Source of the DNA: Ignavibacteriota bacterium
GTDB lineage: Bacteria; Bacteroidota; Ignavibacteria; Tepidaquicellales; Tepidaquicellaceae
Length of the DNA stretch: 37,082 bases
Direction of reading: 5' to 3'
Assembly (NCBI GenBank): GCA_026390755.1
Contig: JAPLFI010000075.1
Span: 1-37,082 of the forward strand
Position numbers and translations under genes: made by a program. This document shows, in pieces, positions 7,384 through 36,445 of the stretch. Position 1 is the stretch's first letter; the number at the start of each line of letters is the position of its first letter. The notes beneath the pieces were generated by a model. That model ran no database searches. It worked only from the letters and a program-made list of their open reading frames with translations, and was not told where the DNA came from.

Positions 7384-7944
7384 ATGAAAAAAAATGTATT
7401 CGTAACGGCTTCAGTAGCTGTTTGTGCAGTACTTTTCTTTGTGTTATTTTCTTCGACAATTCAGTCGCACAGCGCGGGTGACTTCAAGTATGTCGGCGTA
7501 AGCAAATGCGTCACGTGTCATAAATCCGATGCGGCAGGTAAACAACTCGACATCTGGCAGAACTCAGCCCATGCAAAAGCATGGAAAACACTGGAATCAG
7601 AAGCTGCCGATAAGATTGCAAAGGACAAGGGATTCAGCACGAAAGCATCCGAAACACCGGCTTGCATAAAATGTCACGTTCTTGGAAAAGACATCAATCC
7701 CGCAGAACTTACAGATTCCTTTGATAAGGCACAGGGCGTGCAATGCGAAAGCTGTCACGGCGCCGGTTCCGAGTATAAAGCTATGTCAATCATGAAAGAC
7801 AAACCGAAAGCCATTGAAAACGGACTAATTGTTCCGTCGGACATAGCCTCTTTATGCACAGGATGCCACAATTCCGAAAGTCCGACGGCGAAGCCGTTCA
7901 ATTTCGACGAAATGTGGGCGAAAATTAAACACGCAAAACCGTAA
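7384..7944 (+). CDS. Tetraheme cytochrome c554-like periplasmic protein
   Basis: This 186-residue protein has a signal peptide (about 1-30) and four CxxCH motifs: CVTCH (42), CIKCH (94), CESCH (121) and CTGCH (158). The spacing, the conserved W-x-x-S-x-H-A after the first motif and CESCHGAGSEY resemble the cytochrome c554 family (PF13435). Such proteins shuttle electrons in the periplasm. A 155-bp AT-rich gap precedes it, long enough for its own promoter, and its 3' side is occupied by a repeat element. It is probably the soluble link between the inner-membrane and outer-membrane components; that role is inferred from position. Confidence 0.88.
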   Translation: MKKNVFVTASVAVCAVLFFVLFSSTIQSHSAGDFKYVGVSKCVTCHKSDAAGKQLDIWQNSAHAKAWKTLESEAADKIAKDKGFSTKASETPACIKCHVLGKDINPAELTDSFDKAQGVQCESCHGAGSEYKAMSIMKDKPKAIENGLIVPSDIASLCTGCHNSESPTAKPFNFDEMWAKIKHAKP

Positions 7945-8056
7945 GTTAAGTGTTAAAAGTTAAGTGTTAAGTGTTAAAAGTTGAATGTTAAGTGTAAATA
8001 TTTAACATTTGAAATATAACATTTAACATTTGACATTTGAAATAAGTGTTAAGTGA
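7945..8056. repeat. Heptamer-type GTTAAGT/AACATTT repeat, copy 2
   Basis: Starting at the stop of the tetraheme gene, the gap is filled with GTTAAGT-type units (about six, some as GTTAAAA), then AATATTTAACATTTGAAA, two or three CATTTAA/CATTTGA units in the opposite sense, and AAATAAGTGTTAAGTG. It matches the element at 252-330 in block order. GTTAAGT is the reverse complement, by rotation, of the AACACTT unit found at 29381 and 35051. Confidence 0.75.
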
Positions 8057-13540: not shown

Positions 13541-13551
13541 CATTGACAAGT

Positions 13552-13578
13552 GTTAAGAGTTAAGAGTTAAGAGTTAAG
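13552..13578. repeat. GTTAAGA heptamer array between ccmE and ccmF
   Basis: There are three full units of GTTAAGA and a partial fourth in the 75-bp gap between ccmE and ccmF, followed by TTTAAC. It is one base different from the GTTAAGT unit at 7945-8056 and belongs to the same 7-bp intergenic family. Confidence 0.75.
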
Positions 13579-26135: not shown

Positions 26136-27242
26136 CTATTTTAAATTAAATTTAATAATATTCTGATTTGCTTCCTGAAGGGAAGGAAAATCGCTTATAA
26201 AAATTTTGTAAATATTCTCGGTGCCAACTTTTTCCGCAGAAAGCTTTATGTCTTTTCCTTCAAATTGTCCTGACTTCTTAAGACTCTGTAATCTGTATTC
26301 TGCTCCCTGTTCTGTTTTCCATGTTGATTCAAGAATTACGATTTTATCGTCAGCTCCGGCTAAATACAATGCATTATACCTGCTATTGAGATATCCTTTA
26401 TCAGTTTCTGTAACTCCGGAGGGCAGATCTTCTGAACTGCTGATGGAAGTACGTAAAGGGGGATTCTCTTTTTCTTTTGCGTTCAAATCGCTGAGGCTGA
26501 CTTGAAATCTTTCCTGGCTTGTTTTATTCTGACTTCTGAAATCCTTCGGCTCTGTGCTGTTTTTATAGATAAAAAATCCGACCGAACCAAGCACAACGAT
26601 TAAAAAAATTATCGTAAAAATTCTTATATTATTGGGGACGTGTTTTTTAGAGTTAGCAGAGCGATTATTCGTTAATCCCTGAAATGGATCGTCATGATAA
26701 TTTGTAGTGTTAAGATTTTCTAAATCCGCGTATCTTTGATTGTTCAAATTTAAATTTCTGTTTCTTTGATTGTTCAAATTTAAATTTCCGTTTCTTTGAT
26801 TGTTCAAAGCTAAATTTCCGTTTCTTTGATTGTTCATAGCAGAACTCCCATTCATTTGATTATTAAAAGCGGTACTTCCATTTTTTCCGTTATTTCTATT
26901 TGCAGGTTTATTTTGTCCGGACGGAGCGGTAAGTATCTTTTTTGATACTCTGTCTTCTGAATTTTCAAAATTATCAAAGTCTTCAATACTGCATATAACA
27001 TTATTGGAAGGTTTCGAAGGTTTTTGAATATGCTGATTTCTGTTTTCCGCAGAAGTGCTGAGATTTCTGTACTCTTGATTTCTGTTTACGCTCTGTGTAG
27101 CAGATTCTGCTTTTTCCAAAGAATTCATAAGAAGCGGGATTTGTTTTTCGCAAAGAAATTTAATCCTGTCTTCCAGCTCTTTTATCCTGCCGTCTATGAT
27201 TTCCGGTTTGTTTCTGTCTGATACGTATTTTGATGCACTCAT
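26136..27242 (-). CDS. SPOR-domain membrane protein with Asn-rich repeats
   Basis: This 368-residue protein has four parts. A helical motif lies at about 18-35 (IKELEDRIKFLC), also found in both neighbours. A long polar linker contains about five tandem 10-residue units of the type NNQRNGNLNL (about 120-175). There is one membrane helix at 205-226. The C-terminal domain (about 298-366) fits a SPOR fold, with KIVILESTW, EYRLQSLKKSG and YKIFISDFPSLQEA marking the two sequence halves. SPOR domains bind peptidoglycan denuded of stem peptides, often at division sites. The topology would be cytoplasmic N-terminus and periplasmic SPOR. AAAGGA precedes the ATG. Confidence 0.82.
   Translation of the reverse strand: MSASKYVSDRNKPEIIDGRIKELEDRIKFLCEKQIPLLMNSLEKAESATQSVNRNQEYRNLSTSAENRNQHIQKPSKPSNNVICSIEDFDNFENSEDRVSKKILTAPSGQNKPANRNNGKNGSTAFNNQMNGSSAMNNQRNGNLALNNQRNGNLNLNNQRNRNLNLNNQRYADLENLNTTNYHDDPFQGLTNNRSANSKKHVPNNIRIFTIIFLIVVLGSVGFFIYKNSTEPKDFRSQNKTSQERFQVSLSDLNAKEKENPPLRTSISSSEDLPSGVTETDKGYLNSRYNALYLAGADDKIVILESTWKTEQGAEYRLQSLKKSGQFEGKDIKLSAEKVGTENIYKIFISDFPSLQEANQNIIKFNLK
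26731..26880 (-). repeat. Five 30-bp tandem repeats inside the SPOR gene
   Basis: Five units of exactly 30 bp run from 26731 to 26880, each starting with a form of TTTCTTTGATTGTTCAAA on the plus strand. The units at 26731, 26761 and 26791 are nearly identical, the one at 26821 is weaker and the one at 26851 is clearly degenerate. They encode the 10-residue Asn-rich units in the linker of the SPOR protein, so expansion or loss of a unit keeps the frame. Confidence 0.92.
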
Positions 27243-27892: not shown

Positions 27893-29356
27893 ATGGATAA
27901 ATTGATTTACAAAACAGCAAAAAACTACATAAACGGGAAGTTTAGAGATATTGAGAATAAAACACTTGATGTGATATCTCCTCTCGACGGGAAGCTAATT
28001 TCAAAAGTCCCGCTTTCTTCAAAATCTGAACTTGATACAGCGGTTGCCGCAGCTAAAGCTGTTTTTCCTTCGTGGTCGGCTATACCGATTAAAGAAAGGG
28101 CACAGGTTTTTTTCAGGTATAAGACCATATTGGAGAAGAACCTCGATAATCTCGCATATATTACACACATAGAAAACGGAAAAACGCTTAGTGAAGCAAA
28201 AGCAGAAGTAGAGAAAAGCATAGAGCTTACCGAGTTTGCATGTTCAATGCCGCAGTTAATCACCGGTGAAATTCTTGAGGTAAGCAACGGAGTTGAGTGC
28301 AGGATAGATTATGCTCCTGTCGGTGTTGTGGCTTCAATAGCGCCGTTTAATTTCCCGCACATGGTCCCACACTGGACAATCCCGAATGCTTTGGTGCTCG
28401 GAAACTGTATGATATTGAAACCATCCGAAAAAGTACCTGTAACTGCAAGCCATATTGCCGAAATGCTGAAAGAGGCAGGATTACCGGACGGAGTATTCAA
28501 TGTTATTAACGGTGATAAAGTGATTGTTGATGCGATATGCGATCACCCGGATATATCAGCAGTTTCATTCGTCGGTTCGACTAAGGTTGCCAAACTTGTT
28601 TACATACGGGCAACGTCAAATCTTAAAAGATGCACTGCACTGGGAGGCGCTAAAAATCATTTAATAGTAATGCCTGATGCAAATACTGATATGGCCGCCA
28701 CAAATATCGCGGCTTCAATGTCAGGTTGTGCGGGACAGAGATGCATGGCCGCCTCGGCGATGGTCGGTGTTGGTCCTGTTGACCACATAATCGAAAAGCT
28801 CTGCGAGGAAGCAAGAAAAATCATTCCCGGAAAGAATCTTGGTGCGATAATTACAAAAGAATCAAAAGAAAGAATTGAGAGATACATAACTGAAGCTGAA
28901 AAGCAGGGCGCAAAAATACTTATTGACGGTAGAAATGCCGTTGTGCAGGGCAAAGAGGGCGGATTTTATGTGGGACCTACTATAATAGATAACGTGACTC
29001 CCGATATGGCTATTGCGAAAGAAGAGGTCTTTGGTCCGGTTCTGGCGATAATCAGGACAAATACATTAGACGAAGCAATGGAAATTGAAAATAGTTCAAA
29101 CTACGGTAATGCGGCTTCGGTATTCACACAAAACGGAAGTTATGCAAAACTCGTTATGGAGAAAGCATCGGCGGGAATGATAGGAGTGAATATCGGTGTC
29201 CCCGTGCCGAGAGAGCCGTTTTCTTTCGGCGGATGGAATGAATCGAAATTCGGGACCAATGATATAACAGGGGCAAGTTCCATCGGACTATGGACACAGC
29301 CAAAGAAGACCAGCATAAAATGGAATCCGGAAGCGCAAAAAAACTGGATGAGCTGA
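27893..29356 (+). CDS. mmsA: Methylmalonate-semialdehyde dehydrogenase (CoA-acylating)
   Basis: This 487-residue aldehyde dehydrogenase has the nucleotide-binding FVGSTKVA (226-233), the catalytic cysteine C284 in GCAGQRCMA, and GGAKNH (251-256) where most aldehyde dehydrogenases have a catalytic Glu in ELGG. That change and the GQRCMA context are marks of the CoA-dependent MmsA/IolA group. It converts malonate semialdehyde or methylmalonate semialdehyde with CoA and NAD to acetyl-CoA or propionyl-CoA plus CO2. It heads the pyrimidine degradation genes and would finish both the uracil and thymine branches. It starts with ATG at 27893 after a 397-bp divergent gap. Confidence 0.94.
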   Translation: MDKLIYKTAKNYINGKFRDIENKTLDVISPLDGKLISKVPLSSKSELDTAVAAAKAVFPSWSAIPIKERAQVFFRYKTILEKNLDNLAYITHIENGKTLSEAKAEVEKSIELTEFACSMPQLITGEILEVSNGVECRIDYAPVGVVASIAPFNFPHMVPHWTIPNALVLGNCMILKPSEKVPVTASHIAEMLKEAGLPDGVFNVINGDKVIVDAICDHPDISAVSFVGSTKVAKLVYIRATSNLKRCTALGGAKNHLIVMPDANTDMAATNIAASMSGCAGQRCMAASAMVGVGPVDHIIEKLCEEARKIIPGKNLGAIITKESKERIERYITEAEKQGAKILIDGRNAVVQGKEGGFYVGPTIIDNVTPDMAIAKEEVFGPVLAIIRTNTLDEAMEIENSSNYGNAASVFTQNGSYAKLVMEKASAGMIGVNIGVPVPREPFSFGGWNESKFGTNDITGASSIGLWTQPKKTSIKWNPEAQKNWMS

Positions 29357-29380
29357 AAGAACACTTAACAGATAACATTT

Positions 29381-29440
29381 AACACTTAACACTTAACACT
29401 TAACACTTAACACTTAACACTTAACACTTAACACTTAACA
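29381..29440. repeat. Heptamer array (AACACTT)x8 plus AACA
   Basis: There are eight perfect copies of AACACTT and a final AACA, 60 bases in all, between mmsA and the aminotransferase gene; degenerate units extend left to about 29361. It is followed at once by GGAG, so the array ends at the ribosome-binding site. An identical 60-base array lies at 35051-35110. Confidence 0.97.
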
Positions 29441-29451
29441 GGAGTATAATT

Positions 29452-30786
29452 ATGGATAAGAAAGAAATTCTTCATAACAACCAGACATACACATTTACTT
29501 CATGGTCACAGCAAAAAGGACTGAATCCGATATGCATAAAAACCGCAAAAGGAATTTTTCTTTATGATTATGACGGCAGAAGATACTTTGATTTTTCTTC
29601 TCAGCTCGTTTGTGTTAATATCGGGCACGGGCATACTAAGGTTACCGAGGCAGTGGCGAAGCAAATGAGCGAAGTAAGCTACGTATATCCTGGTATGGTT
29701 ACATCTATTCGGGGTGAACTTGGTAAGAAACTCGCAGAAGTGGCACCGGGAACACTGAATAAAACATTTTTCACACTCGGCGGCGCGGAAGCCGTTGAAA
29801 ACGCCATTAAGCTTGCGAGAGTTTATACTGCCCGGCATAAAATTATTACTTTTTATCAATCATATCACGGCGCAACGTATGCTTCTGCATCGGCAGGAGG
29901 TGACCCAAGAAGGCATGCAGTTGATTCACAGCAGGCACCGAACTTTGTACACGTTGAAAACCCTTATTTCTACAGATGTCCATGGAACAGCAAAACAGAG
30001 GAAGAGTGTTCGGAAAACGCCGCCGCTCATATAGAGCGCGTGGTACAGTATGAAGGACCCGCCAGTATTGCGGCAATTATGATGGAAGGTGAATCGGGTT
30101 CTTCCGGATGCATCAAATATCCGGCAGGGTACTGGAAAAAAATTAAAGCAATAGCAGAGAAATACGGAATACTGACGATTGATGATGAAGTTATGAGCGG
30201 ATTCGGCAGAACAGGTAAATGGTTCGCAATCGAGCATCACGGAGTGGAACCCGATATAATGGTAATGGCAAAAGGGCTTACATCGGCGTATATACCGCTG
30301 GGCGGAATTATGGTAAGAGATGAAATCGCGAAAGCGTTTGATGAGAAGCCATTACCGCTCGGATTAACATACTCTGCGCACGCAGTAGCCTGTGCGGCGG
30401 CAAATGCAGTGATGAATATATATAAAGAAGAGAACCTGATTGAGAATGCGGCGCAGATGGGAAAATATATCGAAGAAAAAGTCGAAGAAATGAAACTCAT
30501 ACATCCGAGCATCGGAGATTTCAGGAATACGGGATTGCTGGGCTGTATTGAACTCGTAAAGAACCGCGAAACAAAAGAGCCGATGGCGAGATGGAATGCG
30601 CCGCCTGCGGAGATGGGAATTATGAATAAAGTTATGGCAAAGATTGCCGAACTCGGGATGTTTACGATGGGCAGATGGAATATGATTTTTGTCGCTCCAC
30701 CGCTTTGTATAACAAGGGAACAGATTGACGAGGGATTGGAGATAATATCAAAAGCAATTTCCATTGCCGACGAATACGTTAACTAA
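29452..30786 (+). CDS. Class III aminotransferase, probably for beta-alanine
   Basis: This 444-residue PLP enzyme of fold type I has the phosphate-binding GGAEA (110-114), D244/D245 in IDDEVMSGFGRTG contacting the pyridine nitrogen, and the Schiff-base lysine K274 in MAKGLTSAYIPLGG. The class III family includes omega-amino acid:pyruvate and 4-aminobutyrate aminotransferases. Between dihydropyrimidinase/ureidopropionase and MmsA the fitting reaction is beta-alanine (or 3-aminoisobutyrate) to malonate (or methylmalonate) semialdehyde. The amino acceptor, pyruvate or 2-oxoglutarate, cannot be read from sequence. AGGAG stands 8 bp before the ATG, directly after the heptamer array. Confidence 0.92.
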   Translation: MDKKEILHNNQTYTFTSWSQQKGLNPICIKTAKGIFLYDYDGRRYFDFSSQLVCVNIGHGHTKVTEAVAKQMSEVSYVYPGMVTSIRGELGKKLAEVAPGTLNKTFFTLGGAEAVENAIKLARVYTARHKIITFYQSYHGATYASASAGGDPRRHAVDSQQAPNFVHVENPYFYRCPWNSKTEEECSENAAAHIERVVQYEGPASIAAIMMEGESGSSGCIKYPAGYWKKIKAIAEKYGILTIDDEVMSGFGRTGKWFAIEHHGVEPDIMVMAKGLTSAYIPLGGIMVRDEIAKAFDEKPLPLGLTYSAHAVACAAANAVMNIYKEENLIENAAQMGKYIEEKVEEMKLIHPSIGDFRNTGLLGCIELVKNRETKEPMARWNAPPAEMGIMNKVMAKIAELGMFTMGRWNMIFVAPPLCITREQIDEGLEIISKAISIADEYVN

Positions 30787-30819
30787 AAAAAGTACGGTTC
30801 GAATAGCTTAATTTTAATC

Positions 30820-30833
30820 AACAACTAACAACT
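30820..30833. repeat. Two-unit AACAACT heptamer
   Basis: AACAACT occurs twice in tandem in the 52-bp gap before the dihydropyrimidinase ATG. It is a short member of the heptamer family seen in the other gaps of this operon and occupies the same place relative to the next start. Confidence 0.55.
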
Positions 30834-30838
30834 AAAAT

Positions 30839-32218
30839 ATGTCTGTTTTAATAAAAAACGGAAGAATTATAACGGCGTCGGAAGATTATACAGCCGATAT
30901 TTACACGGAAGGTGAAAAAATTGTCCTTATCGGAAAAAACCTGAACGTAAAAGCGGATGAAGTGATTGACGCAACGGGAAAACTTGTTATGCCGGGCGGG
31001 ATTGACCCTCATGTTCACCTTGATATGCCTTTCATGGGGACTTTTTCTTCGGATAATTATGAAACTGGAACGCTTGCGGCGCTTCACGGCGGAACCACTA
31101 CCGTAATTGATTTCATATTGCAGACGCAGGGCAAATCTCTGTTATCTGCCTACGAAACGTGGAAAAGCAGAGCGGACGGAAACGCTTACGGCGATTATGC
31201 GTTTCATATTGCCGTTACGGATTTCAACGACGAGGTAAAAAAAGAAATCGGGTATTTTATTGACGAACTCGGTATAACGTCATTCAAAACTTTCATGGCT
31301 TATAAAGGCGCGCTGATGATTGATGACAGGCAGATGACGGGTCTGATGGAAGAAGTCCGCGACCGCGGAGGCATTGTAACCGTTCATGCTACAAACGGAG
31401 ACATGATTGATTATCTTGTGGCGAAGAATAAATCGGAAGGAAGACTTGCACCGCTGTATCATTATCTGTCACAACCGGAAATAACTGAATCGGAAGCTTC
31501 GGGCAGGTTTGCCGATATGGCATACAATACAGGTGTGCCGGCATATATTGTTCATATATCCTGCGAAGGAGCATTGAGCGCCGTAAGAAGAGCGCAGGCG
31601 AGGAATCAGATTGTTTACGCTGAAACATGCATACAATATCTTATACTCGATGCTTCCCTGTATGAACAGAATTTCGAAGGTGCAAAATGGGTGATGAGTC
31701 CGCCGCTCAGAGAGAAAAAAGACCAGGCGGCACTATGGAGCGGCATCAACCAGGGTTCGGTGCAGGTTGTAGCGACCGACCATTGTCCGTTTAACTGGAC
31801 TCAAAAGCTTTCTGGTAAGGATGATTTCACGAAAATTCCGAACGGACATCCCGCGATTGAAAACAGAATGGAACTGCTTTTCAGTGAAGGTGTGAATAAA
31901 GGAAAGATTTCTCTTAATAAATATGTTGAAATCACTTCTGCGAATTCTGCGAAAATATTCGGAATGTATCCGTTCAAAGGAACTATCGGAATCGGTTCCG
32001 ATGCCGATATAATAATCTTTGACCCCGAGGAAGAGCATGAACTTTCGGTGAAAAATCATCACATGAACGTGGATTACTCGGGGTATGAAGGCTGGAAGGT
32101 TAAAGGAAAATGCAAACAGACGATTTTACGCGGAGCGCTTGCAATTGATAACGGAAAAGTGAAGATTAAAAAAGGATACGGAAAATACATAAAACGCAAT
32201 AAAACAAATAAAATTTAA
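30839..32218 (+). CDS. hydA: Dihydropyrimidinase (D-hydantoinase)
   Basis: This 459-residue amidohydrolase opens the ring of dihydrouracil or dihydrothymine to the N-carbamoyl beta-amino acid. The binuclear metal site is complete: H58 and H60 (DPHVHLD), the carboxylated lysine K150 (SFKTFMAYKG), H183 (TVHATN), H239 (YIVHIS) and D314 (VATDHCPF). Length is normal for the family. Allantoinase and phenylhydantoinase are relatives, but preT, preA and a beta-ureidopropionase in the same operon favour pyrimidine degradation. Its stop codon overlaps an AACACTT unit at 32217-32223. Confidence 0.95.
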   Translation: MSVLIKNGRIITASEDYTADIYTEGEKIVLIGKNLNVKADEVIDATGKLVMPGGIDPHVHLDMPFMGTFSSDNYETGTLAALHGGTTTVIDFILQTQGKSLLSAYETWKSRADGNAYGDYAFHIAVTDFNDEVKKEIGYFIDELGITSFKTFMAYKGALMIDDRQMTGLMEEVRDRGGIVTVHATNGDMIDYLVAKNKSEGRLAPLYHYLSQPEITESEASGRFADMAYNTGVPAYIVHISCEGALSAVRRAQARNQIVYAETCIQYLILDASLYEQNFEGAKWVMSPPLREKKDQAALWSGINQGSVQVVATDHCPFNWTQKLSGKDDFTKIPNGHPAIENRMELLFSEGVNKGKISLNKYVEITSANSAKIFGMYPFKGTIGIGSDADIIIFDPEEEHELSVKNHHMNVDYSGYEGWKVKGKCKQTILRGALAIDNGKVKIKKGYGKYIKRNKTNKI

Positions 32219-32266
32219 CACTTAACACCCGAAAAAGTTCTACTACGGAGGAAACTCCTGACGGTC

Positions 32267-32322
32267 ACTAAATACTAAATACTAAATACTAAATACTAAA
32301 CACTAAATACTAAACACTAAAT
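32267..32322. repeat. Heptamer array (ACTAAAT/C)x8
   Basis: There are eight tandem 7-bp units between hydA and the ureidopropionase gene, six ACTAAAT and two ACTAAAC, ending 6 bp before the next ATG. The reverse complement of the unit is, by rotation, TTAGTAT, the unit of the array at 33196-33269, so the ureidopropionase gene lies between two oppositely oriented arrays. A small GGAG-GAAA-CTCC hairpin stands at 32247-32258. Confidence 0.95.
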
Positions 32323-32328
32323 AACTAT

Positions 32329-33195
32329 ATGCCAAAAAAAATAAAATCAGGATTAATACAGATGTCCCTTCCCAAAACAGAAGGCGAAGGCACAATAGAA
32401 GAAATTAAGACAGCAATGCTTTTAAAGCATCTTCCTTATATAGAAGACGCCGGGAAAAAAGGAGTTCAGATACTCTGCCTGCAGGAAATATTCAACACTC
32501 CTTATTTCTGTCCCGGACAGGATAAAGCCTGGTATGCGTCAGCTGAATCAATACCGGGAAAGACTGTGGAGCGAATGCAGGAATACGCAAAAAAATATTC
32601 AATGGTGATAATTGTCCCGATTTTCGAAAAAGAACAGGCGGGAGTATTATATAATACAGCGGCAATTATTGATGCCGACGGAACCTTGCTGGGAAAATAC
32701 AGAAAAAACCATATACCGCATACATCGGGATTCTGGGAGAAATTCTTTTTCCGTCCCGGTAATCTCGGTTATCCCGTATTCCAAACGCAGTACTGCAAGG
32801 TCGGAGTTTACATCTGTTACGACAGGCACTTCCCCGAAGGGGCAAGGATACTCGGTCTTAACGGAGCAGAAATAGTTTATAATCCATCGGCAACGGTAGC
32901 GGGGCTTTCTCAGTATTTATGGAAGCTTGAACAGCCCGCTCACGCAGTCGCGAACGGATATTTCATGGGATGCATAAACAGGGTAGGCGAAGAGAAGCCC
33001 TGGAACATTGGAAATTTCTACGGCTCGTCTTATTTTGTTGACCCGAAGGGGCAGATATTCGCTCAGGCATCAGAGGATAAAGACGAACTGCTTATTGCCG
33101 AATTTGATTTGGATATGATTGAAGAAGTAAGGTCAACCTGGCAGTTTTACCGCGACAGAAGACCGGAAACTTACGGAAAGATGATAGAGCTGTAA
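32329..33195 (+). CDS. Nitrilase-family beta-ureidopropionase
   Basis: This 288-residue C-N hydrolase has the catalytic triad E53 (LQEIF), K126 (KYRKNHIP) and C163 (YICYDRHFPE). It would hydrolyse N-carbamoyl-beta-alanine (or the methyl homologue) to beta-alanine, CO2 and ammonia. N-carbamoylputrescine amidase is closely related and cannot be excluded on motifs, but the position after dihydropyrimidinase and with preT/preA supports ureidopropionase. Length is normal for the bacterial form. Confidence 0.92.
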   Translation: MPKKIKSGLIQMSLPKTEGEGTIEEIKTAMLLKHLPYIEDAGKKGVQILCLQEIFNTPYFCPGQDKAWYASAESIPGKTVERMQEYAKKYSMVIIVPIFEKEQAGVLYNTAAIIDADGTLLGKYRKNHIPHTSGFWEKFFFRPGNLGYPVFQTQYCKVGVYICYDRHFPEGARILGLNGAEIVYNPSATVAGLSQYLWKLEQPAHAVANGYFMGCINRVGEEKPWNIGNFYGSSYFVDPKGQIFAQASEDKDELLIAEFDLDMIEEVRSTWQFYRDRRPETYGKMIEL

Positions 33196-33269
33196 TTAGT
33201 ATTTGGTATTTAGTATTTAGTATTTGGTATTTGGTATTTGGTATTTAGTATTTGGTATTTGGTATTTGG
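33196..33269. repeat. Heptamer array (TTAGTAT/TTGGTAT)x10
   Basis: There are ten tandem 7-bp units plus TTGG, mixing TTAGTAT and TTGGTAT, beginning directly after the stop of the ureidopropionase gene and ending 10 bp before the ATG of the four-helix-bundle gene. It is the reverse-complement type of the array at 32267-32322. Confidence 0.95.
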
Positions 33270-33279
33270 ATAAAATAGT

Positions 33280-33630
33280 ATGCACGATTACAAGAAACTT
33301 AATGTCTGGAATGATTCAATTGAACTCGTTTCTGAAATTTACAAAATTACTAAGGATTTTCCTTCTGTGGAAAAATTCGGATTGACGAACCAGATAAACA
33401 GGTGTGCGGTTTCTATACCTTCAAATATAGCTGAAGGTTCCGGGAGAAATACAAATGGTGAATTTATACATTTCCTTGGATATGCGTGTGGGTCTTGCAA
33501 CGAATTGGAAACACAATTGATAATAGCTAATAAATTGAATTATGTAGAGGAGATAGTTTTAAATATATTAACTGAAAAATTAAACGCTATACAAAAAATG
33601 ATTTACAAATTAATTAAAAGTCTAAAGTAA
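33280..33630 (+). CDS. Four-helix-bundle protein (23S rRNA intervening-sequence/S23 family)
   Basis: This 116-residue protein shows the family signature: an opening KKLNVWNDSIELV, FGLTNQINRCAVSIPSNIAEGSGR (residues 33-56), FIHFLGYACGSCNELETQL, and a final amphipathic helix. The family (TIGR02436 type) is found in 23S rRNA intervening sequences and scattered in many FCB genomes, and is related in fold to the Avd protein of diversity-generating retroelements; its function is not established. It does not belong to pyrimidine metabolism, and it is bounded on both sides by heptamer arrays, so it looks like an insertion into the operon. Confidence 0.93.
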   Translation: MHDYKKLNVWNDSIELVSEIYKITKDFPSVEKFGLTNQINRCAVSIPSNIAEGSGRNTNGEFIHFLGYACGSCNELETQLIIANKLNYVEEIVLNILTEKLNAIQKMIYKLIKSLK

Positions 33631-33660
33631 GAAAATTAATGACTAATATACCATATACCA

Positions 33661-33709
33661 ACTACCAACCACCAACTACTAACTACTAACTACTAACTAC
33701 CAACTACCA
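33661..33709. repeat. Heptamer array (ACTACCA/ACTACTA)x7
   Basis: There are seven tandem 7-bp units (ACTACCA, ACCACCA, ACTACTA three times, ACTACCA twice), with degenerate units back to about 33647. It fills most of the gap between the four-helix-bundle gene and preT and ends 7 bp before the preT ATG. Confidence 0.93.
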
Positions 33710-33716
33710 ATAAACT

Positions 33717-35066
33717 ATGTCAGAATATAAACCACCAAAAAACGAAAAAGAATTCGAACAGAATTTTGACCAGATAAAACCGGTCATGAATAAAACAGAA
33801 GCAATATTTGAAAGTTCGCGCTGTTTATTCTGTTATGACGCGCCTTGTGTAAAAGCCTGTCCGACCTTTATAGACATACCTCTATTTATAAGACAGATAA
33901 ATAACGGAAATGTAAAAGGTGCCGCAAAGACCATTTTTTATTCAAATTATCTCGGTAATACATGCGGGAAAGTCTGCCCGACGGAAGTCCTGTGCGAAGG
34001 TTCCTGCGTTTATATTAAAGAAGGCGTAAAGCCGGTTGAAATCGGCAGATTGCAGAATTATGCGACCAATAAGGCAATAACGGAGAAGATAAAAATATTC
34101 TCGCAGGGAGAGCCTGTTAAAAAGAAAGTAGCTATTATTGGCGGAGGTCCCGCGGGATTATCCTGCGCCTGCGAATTAAGGTCTAACGGAATTGAAGCGG
34201 ATATATTCGAAGGAAAATCCAAAGCAACGGGGCTCGCCATACACGGAATAGCTCCATACAAAATTGCAAATCAGGAAGTTGACGACGAACTTGAATATCT
34301 GCTCCGGCAATTCGGATTTAAGATTCACTTTAATCATTATGTCCACGGCGTAGAAGAGTTAAGGAAAATAGAAAAAGAATACGACGCCGTTTTTATCGGA
34401 GTCGGCAATGCCAATACAACCATGCTGAATATTCCCGGAGAGAATAAGAAAAATGTCGTCGGTGCTATAGAGATAATTGAACAATTGAGAAAAAAACATC
34501 ACAAAACGGTTTTCGGGAACAAGGTTGTTGTACTTGGCGGCGGGAATACGGCAATGGACGCCGCATCAGAAGCCGCAAGAATGGGGTCGGAGGCTGTTAT
34601 ACTCGCTTACCGCAGAGCTAAGGCGGATATGAAAGGATACGAATTCGAATTTGACCTTGCAAAACGTGTCGGCGTTAAAGCGTATTTTAATGTGGCGCCG
34701 GTCGAAATACTGGGTGATGAAAAAGTAACGGGAATAAAATTCATAAAAACAAAATCGGAAAACGGTGTTATTACGAATATTCAGGGTTCCGAGTTCACAG
34801 AAGAGTGTGATATGATTATCAAGGCAACGGGACAATCGAGGCATTTTGGTTTGCTTCATAATATAGAAAATCTTGAAACTGATGAAGAAGGAAGGGTAAT
34901 AGTCAACAATGAATTCCGTACGACTAATCCTAAGTATTACGCAGGCGGTGATGCTGTTAATGGCGGGAAAGAAGTCGTTAACTCCGTAGCGGAAGGAAAA
35001 TCAGCCGGGAAAAATATTTCAAAAATACTGTTAAATAAAACCCTGTCCTTAACACTTAACACTTAA
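33717..35066 (+). CDS. preT: Dihydropyrimidine dehydrogenase subunit PreT (NADH/FAD)
   Basis: This 449-residue protein belongs to the glutamate-synthase small-subunit-like flavoproteins. The N-terminal cysteines C36, C39, C44, C48 and C83, C87, C93, C97 would hold two [4Fe-4S] clusters; IIGGGPAGLSCA (140-151) binds FAD and VLGGGNTAMDAA (272-283) binds NAD(P). PreT passes electrons from NADH to PreA, which reduces uracil or thymine. preA follows directly. The last five residues (LTLNT) and the stop are encoded by heptamer repeat DNA, so the natural C-terminus has been set by the array. Confidence 0.94.
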   Translation: MSEYKPPKNEKEFEQNFDQIKPVMNKTEAIFESSRCLFCYDAPCVKACPTFIDIPLFIRQINNGNVKGAAKTIFYSNYLGNTCGKVCPTEVLCEGSCVYIKEGVKPVEIGRLQNYATNKAITEKIKIFSQGEPVKKKVAIIGGGPAGLSCACELRSNGIEADIFEGKSKATGLAIHGIAPYKIANQEVDDELEYLLRQFGFKIHFNHYVHGVEELRKIEKEYDAVFIGVGNANTTMLNIPGENKKNVVGAIEIIEQLRKKHHKTVFGNKVVVLGGGNTAMDAASEAARMGSEAVILAYRRAKADMKGYEFEFDLAKRVGVKAYFNVAPVEILGDEKVTGIKFIKTKSENGVITNIQGSEFTEECDMIIKATGQSRHFGLLHNIENLETDEEGRVIVNNEFRTTNPKYYAGGDAVNGGKEVVNSVAEGKSAGKNISKILLNKTLSLTLNT

Positions 35067-35110
35067 CACTTAACACTTAACACTTAACACTTAACACTTA
35101 ACACTTAACA
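35051..35110. repeat. Heptamer array (AACACTT)x8 plus AACA, overlapping preT
   Basis: There are eight perfect AACACTT units plus AACA, 60 bases, identical to the array at 29381-29440. It begins inside the 3' end of preT, supplies that gene's stop at 35064-35066, and ends exactly at the base before the preA ATG, leaving no room for an ordinary Shine-Dalgarno sequence. Confidence 0.97.
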
Positions 35111-36445
35111 ATGTCAAGCTTAAAATCAAATTTTGCGGGAATAAAATCACCTAACCCTTTCTGGCTCGCTTCGGCGCCGCCGACTAACTCGGGCTATCAG
35201 GTTATGCGTGCCTTCGATAAAGGCTGGGGAGGTGCCGTTTGGAAAACATTAGGTGTACCGATTATCAATACGTCAAGCCGCTACGGAGCAGTGAACTACA
35301 GGGATAAACGAATGGTCGGGTTTAATAATATTGAACTTATATCCGACAGACCTTTATCTGATAATCTCCGCGATATAGAAGAAGTAAAGAAATATTTTCC
35401 TGAACATGCCGTGATAGGTTCGCTTATGGTTGAAACAAAACAGCAGTGGCATCAGATTATCAAAGATGTTGAAAACGCCGGAGTTGACGGAATTGAACTT
35501 AATTTCGGATGTCCGCACGGAATGTGTGAAAGGGGAATGGGCTCGGCTGTCGGGCAGGAGCCGAATGTTTTAACACAGATTGTATCGTGGGTAATGGAAA
35601 CCGCGAAAGTTCCCGTTATAGTAAAACTGACGCCTAACGTTTCGCACATCGAAGAGCCTGCGATTGCGGCGAAAAGAGGCGGTGCGAATGCTGTATCGCT
35701 TATTAACACAATTCAAAGTATTGTCGGAGTTGACATAGATAATTTTGTGCCTTATCCTGTAGTTGACGGAAAAAGTACAAACGGAGGATATTGCGGACCG
35801 GCAGTAAAGCCTATTGCCATGAATATGGTCAAGAATGTCGCGAAAATCCCGGGCTACAATCTTCCGATTTCCGGAATCGGTGGTATCGAGAACTGGCGCG
35901 ATGCGGTTGAATTCATACTTCTCGGCGCAACTAACGTTCAGGTTTGCACGGCAGTTATGCATTACGGTTTCGGAATAATCAGAGAGATATTGGCAGGATT
36001 TGAGCAATACATGGATGAAAAGAATTTCAGCACTGTTGACGAAATGATTGGTAAAGCGCTTCCGAATATACTGCACTGGGAAGAACTTAACCTGAATTAT
36101 AAGGTTATTGCGAAAATAGAGGAGTCAAAATGCATCGGTTGTCAGTTGTGTTACATCGCCTGTGAAGACGGTGCGCATCAGGCAATCGGATTACCCGGAA
36201 ATCCTGACAGCAGAATTCCGCATATCATTGAAGAGAACTGTGTCGGATGTAATTTATGCTCGATAGTTTGTCCTGTTGAGAATTGTATATCAATGGTCAG
36301 AAAAGACGAAAACAAAAAAATAATAAACTGGCAGGAAAGAACCGCGCAGGGAAATATTCCCGTAACGTTCGACGATAAGCTTGCTGGCGGCGTTGGTCAC
36401 TATATCCCCGAGCCGAAAGAGGCAATCGCATACAGGCTGAAGTAA
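35111..36445 (+). CDS. preA: Dihydropyrimidine dehydrogenase subunit PreA
   Basis: This 444-residue protein has a dihydroorotate-dehydrogenase-like FMN barrel (about 5-320) and a ferredoxin tail with two [4Fe-4S] motifs (C341, C344, C347, C351 and C377, C380, C383, C387). NFGCPHGMCERGMGSAVGQ (131-149) is the active-site region and VSLINTI and GGYCGPAVKP line the FMN/pyrimidine site. PreA reduces uracil or thymine to the 5,6-dihydro form with electrons from PreT. In mammalian DPD the loop after GMG carries the catalytic Cys (LACGQ, from memory); here the residue is V147. A bidirectional terminator follows. Confidence 0.94.
   Translation: MSSLKSNFAGIKSPNPFWLASAPPTNSGYQVMRAFDKGWGGAVWKTLGVPIINTSSRYGAVNYRDKRMVGFNNIELISDRPLSDNLRDIEEVKKYFPEHAVIGSLMVETKQQWHQIIKDVENAGVDGIELNFGCPHGMCERGMGSAVGQEPNVLTQIVSWVMETAKVPVIVKLTPNVSHIEEPAIAAKRGGANAVSLINTIQSIVGVDIDNFVPYPVVDGKSTNGGYCGPAVKPIAMNMVKNVAKIPGYNLPISGIGGIENWRDAVEFILLGATNVQVCTAVMHYGFGIIREILAGFEQYMDEKNFSTVDEMIGKALPNILHWEELNLNYKVIAKIEESKCIGCQLCYIACEDGAHQAIGLPGNPDSRIPHIIEENCVGCNLCSIVCPVENCISMVRKDENKKIINWQERTAQGNIPVTFDDKLAGGVGHYIPEPKEAIAYRLK

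Follow-up and report, generated by a model that had tools for sequence, protein, structure and literature searches.

Tandem arrays of heptanucleotides have been repeatedly described in bacterial intergenic regions. Arrays of TAACTGA, often located just upstream of gene starts in Beggiatoaceae, cyanobacteria and some Bacteroidetes, are of unexplained origin; the paper describing them found their mode of spreading not evident and raised the idea of a mobile protein that binds the repeat (MacGregor, 2015, PMC4679880). The short tandemly repeated repetitive (STRR) sequences of cyanobacteria and the GGGNATC repeats of Xanthomonas and Nostoc are heptameric arrays of variable copy number found mainly in non-coding DNA; the latter were described as G-quadruplex repeats for which an association with insertion sequences or transposable elements was reported to be generally lacking (PMC4692102). 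The intervening sequences (IVSs) of 23S rRNA encode a PF05635 (S23) protein, whose open reading frame (ORF) occupies the loop of a stem-loop, and the Coxiella burnetii IVS has been proposed to be a selfish or once-mobile element (PMC4990558). Here we analyze a stretch of 37,082 nt, hereafter the window (contig JAPLFI010000075.1 of the Ignavibacteriota bacterium assembly GCA_026390755.1), where 7-bp arrays are present in the gaps of a pyrimidine operon, and two of them, inverted relative to each other, flank a PF05635 gene.

The genome (3.9 Mb, 628 contigs) has Ignavibacteria-type Bacteroidota as its closest relatives. The operon, at 27893–36445, encodes an MMSDH-like dehydrogenase, class III aminotransferase, dihydropyrimidinase (TIGR02033 match above the cut-off), beta-ureidopropionase-like CN-hydrolase, a 116-aa PF05635 protein, a PreT-like reductase and PreA, in this order (genes were called by a simple longest-ORF rule). 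An earlier sequence-only reading had named it a pyrimidine operon, which stands, with the direction corrected to degradation: this is the reductive, uracil-breakdown pathway. The PF05635 gene (33280–33630; here and below, all array and cassette features of the window are on the plus strand) is the sole member of its family in the genome, matches the 23S_rRNA_IVP profile with 137.8 bits at a cut-off of 33.8, as well as TIGR02436 (four helix bundle protein), and has solved relatives 2GSC and 2RLD. The array on its left (33192–33269, TTAGTAT/TTGGTAT, approximately 11 copies) shares 4 bp with the end of the CN-hydrolase ORF and stops 10 bp short of the ATG of the PF05635 gene; the array on its right (33646–33710, ATATACC/ACTACCA/ACTACTA, approximately 9 copies) is separated by 6 bp from the start of the PreT-like gene. 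Together they form an inverted pair (inverted-repeat score 28), and in the predicted RNA fold of 33185–33720 (–113 kcal/mol, z = –2.9) the left arm pairs with the right one in a stem, although one base per unit differs between the arms, so that their agreement is imperfect.

This locus resembles the Coxiella IVS in its PF05635 ORF, size of about 0.4–0.5 kb, complementary arms and stem-loop (PMC4990558). However, it is situated between the CN-hydrolase and PreT-like genes rather than in a 23S rRNA helix, and its arms are 7-bp tandem arrays with an element-specific unit, unlike in Coxiella, where a single stem of 28 bp is interrupted by a mismatch and a bulge. With the TAACTGA repeats it shares intergenic 7-bp arrays, which here end near start codons when of the C type but not when of the G type; there one unit is used, while here many others are (AACACTT, ACTAAAT and TTTGGTA, none of them TAACTGA), and inverted pairs and the PF05635 gene are central. 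Text searches of PMC4679880 yielded neither S23 nor intervening sequences. The arrays of this genome, heptameric and present in non-coding DNA at many sites, also resemble STRRs and GGGNATC repeats, the difference being that here, Nostoc plasmids included, such arrays occur as cassette arms. Miniature inverted-repeat transposable elements (MITEs) and repetitive extragenic palindromes with their transposases (REP/RAYT) are likewise dispersed short intergenic elements with an ORF in a minority of copies; unlike these, the elements considered here have neither a fixed terminal sequence nor a transposase-type ORF, and their ends are alike in periodicity and pairing.

The same architecture, that is, a G-rich array of 7-bp (sometimes 8–9-bp) units, an ORF and a C-rich inverted array, recurs at PF05635 genes in several phyla. 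It is seen in relatives from the same family, order and Ignavibacteria-type class, and on plasmids of Nostoc (with units such as AGTAGGG and AGGGAAC), Calothrix, Geminocystis, Anabaena, Pseudanabaena, Riemerella, Gemmatirosa and Azospirillum. An inverted pair scoring at least 14 is present at 45 of 58 PF05635 loci, and the arms follow an orientation rule: G exceeds C in 39 of 42 left arrays, and C exceeds G in 36 of 38 right ones. Among the first 29 loci, 22 have such a pair, compared to two of 30 dihydropyrimidinase genes and six of 27 GIY-YIG genes (the latter were considered as alternative cassette cargo, but as a rule lack inverted arms, and served as a control). In the same 29 loci the mean score of own pairs is 19.3 against 9.9 for mismatched ones (0/2000 permutations). 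The unit varies between elements and is nearly common to both arms of one element, with no fixed terminal inverted repeat. The identification of inverted arrays at PF05635 genes as the arms of a cassette is well supported.

GxxExxY genes (PF13366, PDDEXK_3) have a similar plan with 8–10-bp units, e.g., CACAGAGAA, at 17 of 29 loci, which suggests another class of cassette, its ORF being nuclease-like. Inverted 8–10-bp arrays (CACAGAGAA, AACGCTAAG, CACATAGAAA) often flank these genes, both at loci L261–L290 and in pyrimidine operons of the relatives L072, L098, L115, L120 and L133.

Presence or absence of cassettes at otherwise alike sites is observed at five sites on closely related, near-identical cyanobacterial plasmids. 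The site filled in L330 is a stop/start overlap, GAGGTAATGGGATTTG, in L340 and L342, the filled variant being GAGGTAATG-[cassette]-ATGGGATTTG; the site filled in L341 and L346 lies between a stop codon and the following ATG in L330, L340 and L342, and that filled in L326 is a gap of a few bases from stop to ATG in L343 and L344. The fourth site (L321 compared to L345) is between ribonucleotide reductase genes, with the cassette ORF antisense to the operon. At the fifth (L327 and L339 compared to L336 and L337), L327 has the ORF, L336 has nothing, and L338 retains arms without the ORF at the same place. No array seed is present at the empty sites of L340, L342, L343 and L344. On other cyanobacterial plasmids, cassettes are found inside CRISPR operons, between cas6 and cas4 (L328, L329) or cas10 and cmr3 (L332).

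In the pyrimidine operons of relatives, an orthologous cassette with shorter arms occupies the same gap in L072 (the contig of L347), the closest operon that also has the gene. Its units are AGTATTG/AGTAGTG, compared to AGTATTT in the left arm of the window cassette and AGTAGTT in the right arm read back; hence, the last, seventh base has changed alike in both arms. The 37 other operons with the same gene order have no close homologue of the cassette ORF. PF05635 ORFs are present in operon gaps of L074, L103, L108, L141 and L145, and PF13366 ORFs in those of L072, L098, L115, L120 and L133, with more identified by sequence alone; many of these ORFs have inverted arms of their own, and the array units turn over between relatives at one and the same gap. 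The gaps of this operon are repeated targets. Some small inserts in the operon gaps (L130, L138) resemble, by eye, REP-type (Y1) transposases beside hairpins. Bacteroidota-type pyrimidine operons are also present in L083 and L086, which stand under the names Candidatus Nitrotoga and Bifidobacterium breve and whose contigs appear to be mis-binned.

Arrays were surveyed in 752,420 bases of the genome, about one fifth of the fragmented assembly, and in loci picked by similarity. At the score of at least 21 the sample contains 26 arrays of period 7 and at most five of any other period, whereas its locally shuffled copy yields two weak arrays for all periods together. The most common unit is AACACTT: three tandem copies, with two mismatches allowed, have 658 matches in the genome, while the reversed control has none and the 58 relatives combined have about three. 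The intergenic bias is confirmed, as none of 28 array midpoints falls within an ORF though ORFs cover 89% of the sample; 22 of 446 gaps have an array, and arrays clump by contig (0/5000 permutations). Within co-directional gaps, C-type arrays are nearer to the downstream start in 13 of 20 cases, and G-type arrays to the upstream stop in 13 of 14 (Fisher p = 0.0011). The proximity to start codons noted in the sequence-only reading is confirmed for arrays of the C type, at a median distance of 9.5 bp, but not for those of the G type, which adjoin the upstream stop instead. The strand types differ in position, not in count: a simple excess of one type in gaps, 12 vs. 6 by hand and then 22 vs. 16, was weak. 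Contig breaks were considered as a mark of collapsed arrays, but only two of 242 contig ends carry arrays.

The six period-7 arrays with differing units reported earlier in the operon were all found, at 11, 3, 7, 10, 6 and 0 bp from the next ATG, with the correction that two of them, rather than occupying two gaps between enzyme genes, flank one PF05635 ORF in a single gap. Besides the cassette arms, these are a lone C-type array of AACACTT (29366–29440, 10.7 copies) between the MMSDH-like and aminotransferase genes; a short array of AACAACT (30820–30835, 2.3 copies) before the dihydropyrimidinase gene, weak and by itself near chance; a lone C-type array of ACTAAAT (32267–32323), whose unit family is shared with the cassette arms, before the CN-hydrolase gene; and nine copies of CTTAACA (35048–35110), a lone C-type array in which the PreT-like ORF finds its stop codon and which reaches directly up to the preA ATG. 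The degenerate members reported elsewhere in the window are also present. Those at 243–330 and 7945–8040 are themselves ORF-less inverted pairs, G-type then C-type, the former having 78% identity to a part of the pair at 7940, and the one at 13548–13578 is a short lone G-type array of AAGAGTT with a stop codon 7 bp before it. All seven ORF-less pairs in the genome (L043 twice, L213, L370, L379 and these two) have the G-then-C order. Those outside the window (L043, 1739–1886 and 6342–6595; L213, 1–269; L370, 1429–1610; L379, 469–709) nearly all combine a TACCAAA-type and an AACACTT-type arm.

Considered as a single claim that covers both the cassette arms and the lone arrays, it appears fairly probable that the arrays are whole or leftover arms of a small IVS-like insertable cassette residing outside rRNA. 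The cassette comprises a G-rich 7-bp array, an ORF for the PF05635 four-helix-bundle protein, and a C-rich array matching the first one in reverse complement. It enters operons at their stop/start gaps, either way round; such gaps would be tolerated because all reading frames stay intact. Its ends are not fixed: the unit differs between elements, with both arms of each remaining nearly complementary, so that in the transcript or single-stranded DNA the arms could pair along one long stem, leaving the ORF as its loop; the PF05635 protein may bind this stem and promote copying. As G-then-C reads alike on both strands, a C arm would be found by the downstream start and a G arm by the upstream stop after any insertion, which is the pattern observed. 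The lone AACACTT and ACTAAAT arrays would be ORF-less or single-arm derivatives, enlarged through 7-bp slippage. That every lone array originates from cassette arms we infer with somewhat better than even confidence, given that five of the ORF-less pairs combine differing units, that no spacer is common to the pairs, that the ORF-bearing copy is built of a unit other than AACACTT, and that G-poor leaders may contribute. Out of three suggestions in the sequence-only reading, mobility is the best supported, albeit in the form of arms of a PF05635 cassette, which that reading had not seen.

Several observations weigh against this interpretation. The genome has many arrays but one PF05635 gene, whose arms have a unit different from AACACTT, and no movement has been directly observed in it. 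In five ORF-less pairs the arms differ in unit, AACACTT being joined with TACCAAA, and the pairs have no common spacer, hence they did not arise by simply copying one cassette; in view of the differing spacers, ordinary copying of a single composite pair was rejected as well. Perfectly matching pairs may be unstable or unassemblable. The compared filled and empty sites show no consistent target-site duplication, with ATG on both sides in L330. Some of the 58 PF05635 loci are related, so the counts over them are not fully independent, and the control genes also have a weak own-pair excess (2/2000 and 17/2000 permutations), for which terminators and composition may be the source. Finally, G-poor leaders could partly account for the rule placing G near stops and C near starts.

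The arrays might instead be plain simple-sequence repeats, grown from non-coding seeds by polymerase slippage that favours 7 nt, with nothing mobile and the PF05635 gene incidental. In many bacteria, long simple-sequence repeats are most commonly heptamers, and a length for slippage was put forward (Mrazek, 2007, cited in PMC4679880); all array midpoints in this genome are non-coding, and one array changes stepwise from ATTTAGT via ATTAAGT to GTTAAGT (L199, 7505). Still, slippage does not predict inverted arms sharing a unit at PF05635 genes of several phyla, nor empty sites devoid of a seed, nor the occurrence of a single unit at dozens of sites of one genome when 58 relatives have hardly any, and we regard this explanation as unlikely.

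Rather less probable is the role of cis-acting leader elements that are retained because they tune translation of the next gene, with S1, Csp, Csr or a protein like PF05635 as the binding partner. A role of this type was proposed for the TAACTGA repeats, reported at a like position in Beggiatoaceae (PMC4679880), and C-type arrays, which lack G on the mRNA, do end close to start codons. This does not extend to the G-type arrays at stops, the turnover of units among relatives at the same gap, or the majority of sampled gaps that have no array, and the genes inspected share no functional theme. As for recombination hot spots that built or shuffled the operon, the clumping of arrays by contig and the presence of five arrays in one operon agree with such a role, but at least 37 relatives, whose operon gaps do not all hold arrays, have the ordinary gene order, leaving no shuffling to explain, and arrays are rare at contig ends; we consider it very improbable.

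In the broadest form of the cassette interpretation, PF05635 cassettes and the parallel GxxExxY set would be widespread mobile elements and the source of most intergenic heptamer arrays, including cyanobacterial STRRs, with ends set by strand asymmetry, tandem periodicity and complementarity rather than sequence. This is tentative, the balance being against it. Elhai et al. reportedly described small mobile repeats in cyanobacteria in 2008. The sequence-only reading did not recognize the units or their dense use, which is answered in part by the intergenic heptamer arrays beside start codons described from Beggiatoaceae, cyanobacteria and Bacteroidetes (PMC4679880) and likewise from Xanthomonas and Nostoc (PMC4692102). 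In the open literature, with most subscription journals outside the search, we found no paper linking non-rRNA PF05635 genes to such arrays; intergenic heptamer arrays and PF05635 IVSs are each known, while their link and the operon-gap cassettes were not found there. There is a realistic chance that the cassettes form a class of their own. They offer a possible origin for arrays described without one in many bacteria; the S23/four-helix-bundle family is not known to have a function outside rRNA IVSs, and joining the two gives a testable account, in which arms would change sequence yet remain paired. The copy number of arrays before start codons is not necessarily a regulatory device, and the pairs of cyanobacterial plasmids provide material for studying insertion.

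Upstream of the operon, the window also contains 30-bp tandem repeats with TTTGATTGTTCAAA units (26729–26882), located inside a minus-strand ORF (26136–27242).

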